Positions 2,265-7,097 of a stretch of 32,785 nucleotides of DNA are shown here, in pieces. How positions within the stretch are numbered: position 1 is the first letter of the stretch; the number at the start of each line of letters is the position of its first letter. The notes under the pieces are model-generated. The model did no database searches and had not been told where the DNA came from. It saw only the letters and a program-made list of their open reading frames with translations. Where the stretch lies: assembly GCA_001001285.1 (NCBI GenBank), contig LCKG01000005.1, positions 1 through 32,785 on the forward strand. The letters are read 5' to 3'. This DNA is from Parcubacteria group bacterium GW2011_GWC1_45_13. GTDB taxonomy: Bacteria > Patescibacteriota > Minisyncoccia > UBA11713 > 2-01-FULL-45-33. Position numbers and translations under genes: made by a program.

Positions 2265-2286
2265 AAGAGATTTTTGTGGTATGATT
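2265..2286 (+). promoter_or_regulatory. extended -10 promoter, third copy of the AAGAGATTTTTGTGGTATGATT motif
   Basis: 22-bp exact match to 7023-7044; TGgTATGAT extended -10; 17-bp match to 4802-4818. Confidence 0.6.
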
Positions 2287-2295
2287 TAATGTTGT

Positions 2296-3072
2296 ATGGA
2301 AGCAAGAAGTCCCAAGGAGGTTTTACTTACTGGCGGAACTGGATTTATAGGTAGTCGTATCACGGCAGAATTAAAAACTATGAAAAAGTCAAATTCAATG
2401 ACGTACAAAAAACAAAGAACTAAAATAAAATTTATATTTGAATCTACAATACCACAAAAGAATTTTTATATCAGAAATGCTCATTCGAATATCCAGAAGT
2501 TAACTAGATTGTTTTCTGTTTCTCCCTCTTTTGTTGTAGTGCACGTTTTTCGAAATAGAGCATCATTTTTAAAGGCAATCCACAAAAAGAAGGTGCCTGA
2601 TTGGCTTGTTGCTCTCGTGCCTCCAAAAAACACCTCTCGTATTTATGTATTTGACAATAAAGAGAGGATTGCTTCAAAGAAGCTATTGGGTCAGGTAATA
2701 CTACATGAAATAACCCATCTCTATACAAATGCGTTAAATCCAAATCTGCCGGATTGGTTAAGCGAGGGGATAGCGGTATATGTTGCAGCCCAAATTTTTA
2801 AGCCCTCAATATCAACTGCGGATTGGAAAAAGATTACACAAGAAGGCGCGCCCTTCAAGCGAGTGTCTTGGAGAATTGCCGCAGAACATAACGGTTATAG
2901 TATTGCTGGGTTGCTAGTTATGTTTTTTGTAAGGCGATATGGCTGGGAAAAATTTATTGCCGCGATAAGCCACCGTCACTCAAGGCGTATTTCTATTAAA
3001 AGCATCCCATTATACTTCGATGAGAAATTCGAACGGTTTATAGCCGACTTCAAAAAACAGTTTGTAAAATAA
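2296..3072 (+). CDS. peptidase MA-like (gluzincin) protein with an epimerase-like N-terminal remnant
   Basis: HEITH (HEXXH) plus downstream LSEGIAVYVA (third ligand E). The N-terminus VLLTGGTGFIGSRI resembles a nucleotide-binding NAD-epimerase N-terminus. Confidence 0.7.
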   Translation: MEARSPKEVLLTGGTGFIGSRITAELKTMKKSNSMTYKKQRTKIKFIFESTIPQKNFYIRNAHSNIQKLTRLFSVSPSFVVVHVFRNRASFLKAIHKKKVPDWLVALVPPKNTSRIYVFDNKERIASKKLLGQVILHEITHLYTNALNPNLPDWLSEGIAVYVAAQIFKPSISTADWKKITQEGAPFKRVSWRIAAEHNGYSIAGLLVMFFVRRYGWEKFIAAISHRHSRRISIKSIPLYFDEKFERFIADFKKQFVK

Positions 3073-3074
3073 AA

Positions 3075-3103
3075 AAGGGGGAAGTGTGGTTAACTTCCCC
3101 CTT
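3075..3103 (-). terminator. terminator of the radical SAM/precursor operon
   Basis: Perfect 11-bp inverted repeat AAGGGGGAAGT/ACTTCCCCCTT with a T-run on the minus-strand 3' side (CCCCCTTTTTTATTTT). Confidence 0.75.
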
Positions 3104-3132
3104 GATGTTGCGGGAGACGCGCGTCTAACGGT

Positions 3133-3288
3133 TCACTTGACGCACGGATTTGAGTCGCAACTGAAGCAAGTGTTGCATTCAACGCTGACATCGCTACCGG
3201 CCATCTCTGCGCCGAACAGCGGGACTTCGGCGAACACTTCGTTCTGCTCGTTCTCAGCGGCTGTGTCGTTACGAATGTCTGCTTCCAT
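3133..3288 (-). CDS. putative Cys-rich RiPP precursor peptide (51 aa), absent from the supplied ORF track
   Basis: Minus-strand translation MEADIRNDTAAENEQNEVFAEVPLFGAEMAGSDVSVECNTCFSCDSNPCVK*. SD AAAGGAG. The start lies 2 nt after the radical SAM stop codon; a terminator follows. Confidence 0.8.
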   Translation of the reverse strand: MEADIRNDTAAENEQNEVFAEVPLFGAEMAGSDVSVECNTCFSCDSNPCVK

Positions 3289-3290
3289 TG

Positions 3291-4649
3291 CTATTTTCTC
3301 CTTTCTTGCTGATTTGCTGGTTTTATTAGGAAACCTTTCCGGATCAGCTTCTGATACAGACGTTCTACGTTTTTGCGCTCACTTTTGGTCCTTGCGCCAG
3401 AGCGTTTGAGGAAGGATAAAAAGTCAAATTTCTCTCCCTTTTCCGCTACAGTCTTGAGGAAAACCACAGCACTGTGATTTACTAGGACGATGGCTAAAGG
3501 GTCAGTTCTGTAAACTAACGCCCCAAACGGCTCGTTTCGAAACCCTACTTGTGGACACACCATAACCTTAGTCGGGATGTCGCTTATCTCCTCGGACAAG
3601 TGTGAGACCAAACGTTCCTGTGATAAACCGACCAAACGCCGTGTGTCAGCATAGCAATCCATGTTCTTCAAACCGGACGTGAGCGTGTTGACGCGACAAC
3701 CCCCTCTGCAGGCAGTTACGACCGGACAACCATGACACTCCTCGGGGATAAACTCGCCCTCACGCCAACCATCCATTTCCTGCCAGATATCGGCGAGCGG
3801 TTTGTGAAAGATATTCCCGTAGCTTGTTTCCAAGTGAGAACATGGTCTCACTTTCCCGTCGGCACCGATTGTAACTGTTGTATAGCCAGCCACACAGGTG
3901 CGGTGCGAGAAGCGTTGGTACGCAGGAGTGCCTGCAAGGAAACATTTGGGGTAGCAACCCAAGATGTCGACGGGAATATCAAGCAGTTCCTCAATCCGCA
4001 TGAGCTCGGCGAGAGACCAATGTACCTCCTCTGCTGACAGGAGAAATGCGCTGTCAGGTGCATGGGCATTAGGGAGTGCCTTTGTCGCACAGAATGTACG
4101 TACACCGAGATTCTTAGCAAGGCGCGCCGTAACCTCCATTGCGTGGAGGTTTTCTCGCATGAGAACCATGTTGAGACTCACCGGAATCCCATGCTGGATG
4201 GCCAAGGCTGCTATCTCAATCACTCGGACGTAGGAACCGCTTGGGGCACCAGCGAGATGTTCATGCTCTGCCGCGTCTGCTGAAAGAAGTGAGAAGAGGA
4301 TTGATACGTTACTGTGTTTGTTAGCGAGCTTCTCGATATCTTCTTTTTTCACGAGACTAAGGTTTGTGTTAATTGATGCGTGAATACCCGCTCTCTCAGC
4401 CGTTTCCAGTAGCATAAAAATTTCTCTGCGTTGTGAAAATGGCTCGCCGCCAGTGATCGTGATCGACGGAACTTGGTTTGTAACTAGTTCCTGCACGATG
4501 CGAAAAAGATTCTCGCAGGAAAGATGTCGACCGGGCTTGGTTGTTGTCCCAGCTGAACGCCAGTAGTTATAACAATGGCGGCATCGCCAGTTGCAAGCCT
4601 GTGTCAGCTCGATTTGCGCATCTACAGGAGCGTTGAGTTTAGCCGCCAT
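3291..4649 (-). CDS. radical SAM/SPASM peptide maturase with C-terminal PqqD/RRE-like region
   Basis: CNWRCRHC (CX3CX2C) motif, GGEPF, SPASM cysteines (GKVRPCSHL...ECHGCPVVTACRGGC). The C-terminal ~100 aa (FRNEPFGALVYRTDPLAIVLVNHSAVVFLKTV...LYQKLIRKGFLI) is PqqD-like. SD AAAAGGAGAATAAATCATG. Confidence 0.85.
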   Translation of the reverse strand: MAAKLNAPVDAQIELTQACNWRCRHCYNYWRSAGTTTKPGRHLSCENLFRIVQELVTNQVPSITITGGEPFSQRREIFMLLETAERAGIHASINTNLSLVKKEDIEKLANKHSNVSILFSLLSADAAEHEHLAGAPSGSYVRVIEIAALAIQHGIPVSLNMVLMRENLHAMEVTARLAKNLGVRTFCATKALPNAHAPDSAFLLSAEEVHWSLAELMRIEELLDIPVDILGCYPKCFLAGTPAYQRFSHRTCVAGYTTVTIGADGKVRPCSHLETSYGNIFHKPLADIWQEMDGWREGEFIPEECHGCPVVTACRGGCRVNTLTSGLKNMDCYADTRRLVGLSQERLVSHLSEEISDIPTKVMVCPQVGFRNEPFGALVYRTDPLAIVLVNHSAVVFLKTVAEKGEKFDFLSFLKRSGARTKSERKNVERLYQKLIRKGFLIKPANQQERRK

Positions 4650-4732
4650 GATTTATTCTCCTTTTTTCTGCTGATTTTGAACTATGTCAGGGTGCTATGC
4701 AGAACAAAGCTATTTTGCTCTATCTATTGGTA

Positions 4733-4760
4733 ATAATAAGCAATTGTTAGTTATTGTCAA
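4733..4760 (-). promoter_or_regulatory. sigma70-type promoter for the radical SAM operon
   Basis: Minus strand TTGACA-N16-TATTAT. Confidence 0.6.
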
Positions 4761-4872
4761 TAACTATGCTTATTTCTATATTAACTCCTCTTATTCCGTC
4801 CATTTTTGTGGTATGATTGGGGATATGAAAACTCGGCTATCTTTGTTTCTTTATGAATGGATTTAAACTTAT
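4757..4872. repeat. direct repeat copy A (promoter plus first codons of the 7078 gene)
   Basis: Aligns with 6981-7097 over about 116 bp with scattered substitutions; includes the exact stretch ATCTTTGTTTCTTTATGAATGGATTTAAACTTAT. Confidence 0.9.
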
Positions 4873-4909: not shown

Positions 4910-5905
4910 TTACGGCCTGTTCGAATACGCAGTAGGATCAACAAGCAAATCCGCTATCGCTTTGGAAATCGGCATGCCAGTAATAGCTTCAATCCATCCC
5001 CACTGGCCGCTCGGATTGACCTCGAGGAAGACATAATCACCTTTCGGTGTGAGGATCATATCGATAGCGCCAAACTGCAAATCCCAAATGCGCATAGCCT
5101 GCAGGAGTTTCTTTACAATTTCCGGAGGCAATTCACATGGCTCGTGTTTAACGTGACCAAAGTCATATCGGCGCCAATCATACATAGTCCGTTTGCTGTC
5201 CTGGGAGTGAATAGCACAGGAGAAGATCCTATGTCCAACAACTGTGATTCGCAGTTCAAGCTTCTTGGGAATGTAATTTTGAAATATTACCGGCGCATAG
5301 CGAAGCTCGTGGCCGAATTTTTCCAAGCCATCCCGAGTAATAGGAGTAGTAAATACACTTATCGGCCATCCGGAGTCGTTGCGGGTATGGCTTCCAAATG
5401 TCTTCGCCACTATTGCCCCATTCCAACAGTCAAAAAATTCTTTTACCGCATCAAGACAATTTGTAATAAGTGTTGCCGGAGTGGCAAGGCCGACCTGATC
5501 GGCTGTATGTAACTGAAGAGGTTTACTGTGTTCCAATTTGCGAAGAGCCGAAGGATGGTTAACCCAGACTATTTCGTTGGTATCCGCACTGTTCCACAAT
5601 GCCATTAGAAACCGCTGGTTTTCGTTTTCAGCGTATTTCCTGTGATTTTCAGTGAGCTTTTCAGTGATGATAGTCACATTTGACGGTCTTCGGTACCAGA
5701 CTGCCTTGATATTATTAGCCGAGATAGTCTGCATACCACAAGTCAACAAGAAATCTATTTCTCCTTTTTCTACTTGAAGAGTAAGACCATGCCCTACAAG
5801 CTGATCTGTATTCAATCGCAGCACTTGGCTAGATACCAAATGCTTTTGCACCTCTGGCACATTGAGCTCGTTGGAGTCAGTTACTATCAGAATCTTGTCT
5901 CTCAT
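4910..5905 (-). CDS. MvdC/MvdD-like ATP-grasp peptide ligase (graspetide-type)
   Basis: AVWYRRP, FQNYIPKKLELRITVVGHRIFSCAIHSQ, DLQFGAIDMILTPKGDYVFLEVNPSGQWGWIE motifs. Upstream SD AAAGGAAA. Confidence 0.85.
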   Translation of the reverse strand: MRDKILIVTDSNELNVPEVQKHLVSSQVLRLNTDQLVGHGLTLQVEKGEIDFLLTCGMQTISANNIKAVWYRRPSNVTIITEKLTENHRKYAENENQRFLMALWNSADTNEIVWVNHPSALRKLEHSKPLQLHTADQVGLATPATLITNCLDAVKEFFDCWNGAIVAKTFGSHTRNDSGWPISVFTTPITRDGLEKFGHELRYAPVIFQNYIPKKLELRITVVGHRIFSCAIHSQDSKRTMYDWRRYDFGHVKHEPCELPPEIVKKLLQAMRIWDLQFGAIDMILTPKGDYVFLEVNPSGQWGWIEAITGMPISKAIADLLVDPTAYSNRP

Positions 5906-5957
5906 CGGTTTTTCCTTTCTGCTTTATTTGTCAAAAAGCTCGAATTTGCTATACTAA

Positions 5958-5986
5958 AATATAATCTTATTATTACAATATGTCAA
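5958..5986 (-). promoter_or_regulatory. sigma70-type promoter for the ATP-grasp gene, overlapping the start of the divergent TPR gene
   Basis: Minus strand TTGACA-N17-TATATT. Confidence 0.6.
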
Positions 5987-6666
5987 GTAGAAAAAAAATG
6001 GCCATCGCGTCTCTCGAACAAGAAATATTGGACATTTTTGATCTATCCGCAAAAAATTATAGATATAAAGAAGGTATCAAGAAAATAGAAAAAATAGTAG
6101 AAATTCACCCGGAGTTAAAAAACGAGAGCGTTCTTAGCGAACTTGGATTTCTTTATGACCACCTTGCTCTTCAACAGAAGAATAAGTTATTAAGAAATAA
6201 ATACGAAGAAAAAGCGTTTAATCTCTATCGGGGAGCTCTTAAAAAAAATCGCGAATCTATTAATGCCATATGGGGTATTGGAAGAATTTGGTGGCACAGA
6301 AAGAACAGAAAAGCAGTAAAATACGCGATTAAAGCTGCGAATCTTATGAAAAAATTGCATGGCTCAGCTGGATTGATGTTGCAAAATGTAGGATTAGTTT
6401 ATGAGGCTCTCGGCGACATAAAACGAGCAGAGCAATGGTATTTAAGAGGGTTAAAGGAAGAGCCTAATAATTTCGGTGGTTACTATAATTTATTAAACTT
6501 TCATCACAAGCAGGAGCGGCGTGAGGAAGTTCAAAAACTATTGCCAGCTTTTAAAAAACTTTATCAAAAAGAAACAACGAAGTTTAAAAAAACTTCCTGG
6601 GGCAAGGATATTTTAAAAAAGATCAAAGAACTTGAGCAATTTGTTTTATTACACACGAAAAAATGA
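5980..6666 (+). CDS. TPR-repeat protein
   Basis: Helical repeat pattern, e.g. LMLQNVGLVYEALGDIKRAEQWYLRGLKEEPNNFGGYYNLLNFHHKQER. Confidence 0.75.
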   Translation: MSSRKKMAIASLEQEILDIFDLSAKNYRYKEGIKKIEKIVEIHPELKNESVLSELGFLYDHLALQQKNKLLRNKYEEKAFNLYRGALKKNRESINAIWGIGRIWWHRKNRKAVKYAIKAANLMKKLHGSAGLMLQNVGLVYEALGDIKRAEQWYLRGLKEEPNNFGGYYNLLNFHHKQERREEVQKLLPAFKKLYQKETTKFKKTSWGKDILKKIKELEQFVLLHTKK

Positions 6667-6702
6667 ACACGGGGAGGTCGAGTCAAACCAACCTCCCTGT
6701 GT
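6667..6702 (-). terminator. strong hairpin between the TPR gene and the graspetide precursor
   Basis: ACACGGGGAGGT / ACCTCCCTGTGT, 12-bp stem with one G-T. T-run (CATTTTTT) on the minus-strand side. Confidence 0.65.
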
Positions 6703-6717
6703 ATTAGATACCTCGCT

Positions 6718-6888
6718 TCAGTCCGGGTCGCTCTTTGAGTCCGCGCCATATTTGCCGGTGGCGTAAACGGTTGTTTGGACCGTTGCCATAAATATGCCTT
6801 TATCCAGAATTCCGCTGCTGATTTCTTCCTGCGACATCAGCGGTTCGGCGAACCGAAGAGCAAATGGCATTTCTTGTTGTTTCAACAT
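6718..6888 (-). CDS. putative microviridin-like graspetide precursor (56 aa), absent from the supplied ORF track
   Basis: MLKQQEMPFALRFAEPLMSQEEISSGILDKGIFMATVQTTVYATGKYGADSKSDPD*. Leader PFALRFAE (compare PFFARFLE), C-terminal TGKYGADSKSDPD (compare TxKYPSDxxE). SD AAAGGAGG and a sigma70 promoter upstream. Confidence 0.8.
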   Translation of the reverse strand: MLKQQEMPFALRFAEPLMSQEEISSGILDKGIFMATVQTTVYATGKYGADSKSDPD

Positions 6889-6980: not shown

Positions 6981-7097
6981 TCAATAATTATGCTTATTTC
7001 TGTACTAATCCCTCTTATTCTAAAGAGATTTTTGTGGTATGATTGAGGTATGAAAATTTGGTTATCTTTGTTTCTTTATGAATGGATTTAAACTTAT
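6981..7097. repeat. direct repeat copy B
   Basis: Paired with 4757-4872; contains the promoter and start of the 7078 gene. Confidence 0.9.
7050..7091 (+). CDS. possible 13-aa upstream peptide MKIWLSLFLYEWI overlapping the start of the 7078 gene
   Basis: ATG lies 6 nt after the TATGAT -10; the TAA stop overlaps the downstream ATG region. The frame is also open in copy A (MKTRLSLFLYEWI). Confidence 0.35.
   Translation: MKIWLSLFLYEWI

Follow-up and report, generated by a model that had tools for sequence, protein, structure and literature searches.

A probable horizontally mobile RiPP cassette, mainly of Patescibacteria, with an RRE-fused radical SAM/SPASM enzyme, a cysteine-rich precursor and a gluzincin peptidase

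The window analysed here is the whole stretch of 32,785 nucleotides. Near its left end, a gene for a radical SAM/SPASM enzyme is followed by a 51-aa open reading frame (ORF), and a gene for a gluzincin (HExxH) peptidase converges on this pair from the opposite strand (table 1). The TAG stop of the enzyme gene (3293..3291) and the ATG of the small ORF (3288..3286) are separated by two nucleotides ('ca'), and the Shine–Dalgarno sequence AAAGGAG (3304..3298), 9 nt ahead of this ATG, lies within the last codons of the enzyme gene. The ORF ends in VECNTCFSCDSNPCVK, with cysteines spaced C38-x2-C41-x2-C44-x4-C49. The coupled pair, its cysteine pattern and the place of the Shine–Dalgarno sequence, reported in the first-pass annotation, were verified in the sequence, as were the promoter ahead of the pair (4760..4733) and a stem with T-run after it (3103..3075). 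The promoter scores 11 of 12 matches, in a scan that returned 11 promoter-like sites against 6.8 expected; taken alone, the promoter and terminator scans are weak evidence. A copy of the locus with 86% identity, in Candidatus Kerfeldbacteria (L055), keeps both hexamers with their N16 spacing, the Shine–Dalgarno sequence as AAGGAG and an almost identical terminator stem, while the DNA upstream of the −35 box is unrelated. The sequence shows a single promoter for the SPASM enzyme, with its C-terminal RRE, and a Cys-rich precursor whose translation is coupled to that of the enzyme. The extent first assigned to the pair was correct but too narrow, since the unit includes the convergent peptidase gene at 2398–3072 (+); the fused RRE, the HExxH peptidase, horizontal transfer and a neighbouring graspetide cassette had been overlooked.

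Table 1. Features of the cassette and its surroundings (positions in the window).
Feature	Position	Strand	Basis
Putative radical SAM/SPASM maturase, 452 aa	3291..4649	-	PF04055, SPASM PF13186, AlphaFold2 model, Foldseek
CX3CX2C radical SAM cluster motif (C19, C23, C26)	4572..4595	-	Invariant in 20 aligned relatives
SPASM auxiliary-cluster cysteines C252, C270, C305, C308, C314, C318	3696..3896	-	Invariant in 20 aligned relatives
Predicted C-terminal RRE, MftB/PqqD-like, residues about 362–437, strands then helices	3339..3566	-	hhalign, model
Precursor peptide (putative), 51 aa	3133..3288	-	Shine–Dalgarno overlap, 2-nt gap, dN/dS against L055, recurrence in relatives
Cys cluster of presumed core, CX2CX2CX4C (C38–C49)	3142..3177	-	Sequence; CXCX2CX4C in L055
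Shine–Dalgarno AAAGGAG of precursor, within radical SAM gene	3298..3304	-	Sequence; AAGGAG in L055
Promoter TTGACA-N16-TATTAT	4733..4760	-	Scan; hexamers and spacing kept in L055
Terminator stem between convergent precursor and peptidase genes	3075..3103	-	11-pair stem and T-run; stem near-identical in L055
HExxH metallopeptidase (putative), 224 aa	2398..3072	+	Peptidase_MA_2, invariant HExxH and E, Foldseek, 26/29 loci
HEITH zinc motif	2704..2718	+	H, E, H invariant in the two divergent subtypes
Extent of putatively transferred cassette	2419..4760	.	BLASTN, 86% nt identity to L055, nothing beyond
17-bp direct repeat ATTTTTGTGGTATGATT, left of cassette	2270..2286	+	
17-bp direct repeat, right of cassette	4802..4818	+	Identical to copy at 2270..2286
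Graspetide ATP-grasp, TIGR04187/MvdC-like	5905..4910	-	TIGR04187 2e-71, below 350-bit cut-off
TPR gene in graspetide cassette	5980–6666		
Graspetide precursor, PFALRFAE leader, TxxxTx9Dx3D core	6888..6718	-	Read from ORF

The enzyme matches Pfam families PF04055 (1.9e-25) and PF13186 (SPASM, 9.6e-9), and its AlphaFold2 model (pLDDT 87, pTM 0.88) comprises a radical SAM barrel, a SPASM part and a final βββ-ααα domain. The profile of this C-terminal part aligns end to end with PqqD/MftB in hhalign (82% probability, E 1e-5, 76 collinear columns), most clearly with MftB (RxEPFGALxY), against at most 0.1% probability for decoys with shuffled columns. The Pfam PqqD model has no match on the enzymes, so the homology to RREs rests on the profile–profile comparison and the structural model. 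C-terminal RRE fusion as such is already known, from proteusins (PMC7470986). The solved proteins nearest by sequence are SkfB, PqqE and SuiB, and those nearest by fold (Foldseek) are SuiB, SkfB and CteB, with PqqE also matched; these are peptide maturases, mostly thioether-forming or C–C-linking, which speaks against grouping the enzyme with the non-peptide SPASM families. The enzyme stays far below the cut-off of every NCBIfam maturase model: NirJ2 scores highest (98.9 of 500 bits), and the scores fall short for the sactipeptide maturases AlbA (73 of 850), SkfB (59.7 of 300) and StsB (73.6 of 625) as well as for the equivalogs MftC (73.4 of 265) and PqqE (87 of 381), while the ranthipeptide models SCIFF and PapB do not appear in the enzyme's top 25 matches. 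Taken together, the fold and sequence neighbours, the RRE profile match and the lack of an NCBIfam fit make the enzyme a SPASM protein of the peptide type, carrying an RRE at its C-terminus and belonging to a family without a name. A defence role suggested by PADLOC was rejected, as the similarity is only the generic one to the radical SAM domain of viperin.

A profile built from three sequences served to collect relatives of the enzyme from GTDB genomes and from Patescibacteria. A precursor was defined as an ORF of 25–95 aa, starting −100 to +130 nt from the stop and having at least four Cys in its last 40 residues, a rule run alike on enzymes and control genes. Such an ORF abuts the enzyme in 24 of the 29 related loci, against 17 of 319 control genes (Fisher p about 2e-21), and at least three of these 17 look like real or annotated Cys peptides (for example, second precursors in L021 and L030). 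Precursors were found by inspection in four of the other five loci, one with three Cys (L022), one 452 nt downstream (L023) and two beside the peptidase (L031 and L037). L081 has neither a separate precursor nor a peptidase; its enzyme (1495–2820) carries a terminal Cys-rich stretch, DCDSCALHNVCYSVHNCR, a possible precursor fusion. Ten new genomes of the window's class served as an independent sample: seven have precursor and peptidase, L092 has the peptidase only, and both are absent from L096 and L097.

Compared with L055, the precursor has 10 codons with replacements and 9 silent changes (dN 0.12, dS 0.62, dN/dS 0.20), and all three genes of the cassette are under purifying selection (dN/dS 0.18–0.24). 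Given this constraint and the excess over control genes, the pairing of enzyme and Cys-rich ORF is not due to chance. The initial proposal of a SPASM radical SAM peptide maturase acting with a Cys-rich precursor is thus supported by the related loci and the nearest solved proteins, and the conservation of the precursor, which had been put forward as a check, bears it out. Neither Pfam nor NCBIfam has a match for the 51-aa ORF, as might be expected of a spurious ORF or of a small Cys protein unrelated to the enzyme (zinc-ribbon or metallothionein-like), but its position, its Shine–Dalgarno overlap, its selective constraint and the finding of such an ORF next to the enzyme in most related loci make this the most improbable of the explanations considered.

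Across the loci, Cys accounts for 25% and Asp for 18% of the presumed cores, whose spacing is hypervariable, Cys being the dominant and most constant residue; one clade keeps CYDCDxNCEEC in different families. An FxSLL-like leader motif occurs in 14 of 37 precursors against 2.9 expected, although it was picked after looking, and it is absent from the window's own leader. A likeness of the window and L055 cores to the SCQCVNCQSCDNKCNK group was set aside, since 16 of 1000 Cys-fixed shuffles of the L055 core and 217 of 1000 of the window core did as well; it is suggestive for the L055 core but not for that of the window.

The features of a RiPP maturase are found together here: the CX3CX2C motif and SPASM Cys set, a fused RRE and an adjacent precursor, conserved across loci, with a variable core. 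The chemistry is less clear-cut. The HMM models closest to the enzyme include NirJ2, AhbD and PqqE, enzymes that do not form thioethers, and also MftC and WgkB. It could therefore be that the enzyme makes C–C or C–O bonds in the core, or epimerises or decarboxylates it, as PqqE, MftC, WgkB or the proteusin epimerases do, with the cysteines serving for disulfides or metal. The MftB-like character of the fused RRE and the precedent of the proteusin C-terminal fusion (PMC7470986) fit this possibility; against it, Cys dominates the cores, and SkfB, SuiB and CteB rank top in sequence or fold, and we judge it unlikely but deserving of serious consideration. The parts also resemble those of a pathway for a peptide-derived redox cofactor of the PQQ or mycofactocin type (a PqqE/MftC-like radical SAM enzyme, an MftB-like RRE and a peptidase), in place of an antimicrobial or signalling peptide. 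The PqqA and MftA cores are conserved, however, whereas those studied here are hypervariable between loci, and no linked dehydrogenase or cofactor-dependent partner is present, making a cofactor very improbable.

The third gene encodes a protein with a weak match to Peptidase_MA_2 (1.2e-4, and 3.2e-9 for the best family member), and Foldseek returned collagenase T, M1 peptidases and EryP, a lanthipeptide metallopeptidase, at modest scores. HExxH proteins in related loci have 141–315 aa, one copy lying near a contig end, and form two divergent subtypes, over both of which the three motif residues (H, E, H) and one additional E are invariant. Of the 29 related enzymes, 26 have a HExxH gene no more than 1.3 kb away, against none of 17 sister-clade enzymes; L038 has none nearby. 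The enzyme–precursor–peptidase unit is repeated in tandem in L045 (261–5777), with one decayed enzyme and one truncated peptidase copy, and further radical SAM genes with a Cys-rich ORF and a HExxH gene occur in L030 (4290–6711, PapB-like) and L021 (7665–9437). The specificity of the HExxH gene for the precursor-bearing clade, on either strand, and its duplication along with the precursor in L045 would also suit a protein for self-protection, a chaperone or an effector carried with each precursor. Invariant zinc ligands over two divergent subtypes and the fold match to EryP argue instead for a peptidase, as does leader cleavage by zincins in CPR graspetide loci, independently suggested by Makarova et al. 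2022 (PMC8939145), and a non-peptidase role seems rather unlikely. By analogy, we lean towards a zinc peptidase that removes the leader.

BLASTN aligned 2419–4760 with L055 at 86% nucleotide identity between unrelated flanks, the homology stopping at the −35 box at one end and close to where the peptidase gene starts at the other end. DnaB, by comparison, is only 56% identical between the two genomes, and the enzyme is absent from two genomes of the window's genus (DnaB 97% and 95% identical). The cassette interrupts a gene for an NAD-dependent epimerase: an in-frame remnant (2296–2373) lies upstream of the peptidase gene, whose reading frame begins with it at 2296, and the first 26 residues of that ORF are 62% identical to an epimerase of a same-family genome, where the epimerase gene lies immediately ahead of the same histidine kinase gene. 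Three perfect 17-bp repeats (at 2270, 4802 and 7028, the third spanning 7028–7044) bracket the three-gene cassette and the graspetide cassette. The 86% block, unrelated flanks, divergent DnaB, absence from same-genus genomes, broken epimerase gene and repeats all support a mobile unit of enzyme, precursor and peptidase, apparently exchanged horizontally with distant relatives. Searches for its vehicle gave only weak partial radical SAM matches in viral contigs and only PqqE/MftC-like relatives of less than 30% identity on plasmids, so no vehicle was found.

The adjacent genes at 4910–6888 form a graspetide cassette of a known kind. CPR graspetides have a Phhx(1,2)h leader and a TxxxTx(6-10)Dx(1-4)D core (PMC8939145); the ORF at 6888..6718 has such a leader, and its core reads T-VQT-T-x9-D-SKS-D, which fits branch 1 of that study. 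The genome of L055 has no ATP-grasp match. A 118-bp direct repeat (86%; 4757–4872 and 6981–7097) flanks this cassette, the beginning of the reductase gene at 7078 constituting the second copy.

The three-gene family is best read as mainly patescibacterial, with further members on contigs attributed to other groups, among them DPANN archaea and Omnitrophota; the host names Crenarchaeota (L029), Deltaproteobacteria (L045, L050) and Pacearchaeota (L031, L037) come from metagenomic binning, in some cases of short contigs, and binning errors may have occurred. The tree does not show one three-gene clade: the label needs five changes, several of them at truncated or contig-end loci.

We consider it probable that the locus is a horizontally mobile three-gene RiPP cassette of a SPASM maturase with fused RRE, a Cys-rich precursor and a gluzincin peptidase. 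In the mechanism that we propose, the RRE would bind a short hydrophobic leader of about 35 aa, and the radical SAM/SPASM domain would take hydrogen from the Cys/Asp-rich core and crosslink it. Since Cys makes up a quarter of core residues and thioether-forming enzymes are found among the nearest structures, Cys-to-carbon thioethers are the likeliest crosslinks, and we moderately favour them. Our guess, held with somewhat less than even confidence, is that the product plays a part in dealings among microbes, through competition or through association with a host; next to the cassette, neither an exporter gene nor an immunity gene was seen.

Sactipeptide and ranthipeptide systems (SkfB, AlbA, CteB/SCIFF and PapB) share with this cassette a SPASM maturase, an adjacent short Cys-rich precursor and an RRE, but their RRE is N-terminal, their maturase models do not fit, and the cassette described here occurs mainly in Patescibacteria and has a gluzincin peptidase in place of the usual protease/exporter set. 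The mycofactocin (MftB–MftC) and PQQ (PqqD–PqqE) systems are alike in the radical SAM/SPASM core and RRE, whereas here the RRE is fused to the enzyme, the precursor is Cys-rich and hypervariable, and the cofactor pathway genes are absent. Proteusin radical SAM epimerases have the C-terminal RRE fusion in common (PMC7470986) but act with long nitrile-hydratase-like leaders, in contrast to the short Cys-rich precursors and SPASM domain here. Branches 1 and 2 of the CPR graspetides (PMC8939145) are patescibacterial RiPP loci with zincin peptidases and sometimes SPASM enzymes; ATP-grasp is central there, while radical SAM enzyme, Cys-rich precursor and peptidase stand alone here. In the literature searched, with many subscription papers outside its coverage, we found no description of this cassette. 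It is best regarded as a new family within radical SAM RiPP cassettes, a kind already known. We put the odds at about even that its traits (fusion of the RRE to the C-terminus of the enzyme, Cys/Asp-rich cores that are hypervariable, a dedicated gluzincin peptidase for the leader, and exchange in compact cassettes among ultra-small symbionts and DPANN archaea) mark a RiPP class of its own.

In Patescibacteria, whose small genomes encode little biosynthesis, interactions with hosts and rivals are mostly obscure. The genome studied here, probably that of a tiny symbiotic bacterium, has 0.76 Mb and only three radical SAM genes. A peptide cassette of three genes that reached it recently by transfer is a compact candidate for such interaction, open to direct testing. 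The precursor–enzyme–peptidase triplets also offer a large set on which novel radical SAM peptide chemistry, and the way leaders are removed, can be studied.

Elsewhere in the window, 1–766 holds the 3′ end of a 16S rRNA gene and tRNA-Ile; 23S rRNA is absent from the 32.8 kb, and the rRNA genes seem to be unlinked. Positions 890–1519 encode a protein of 209 aa that is without a match in Pfam or NCBIfam and looks secreted, with a signal peptide and a CPSCGG end.
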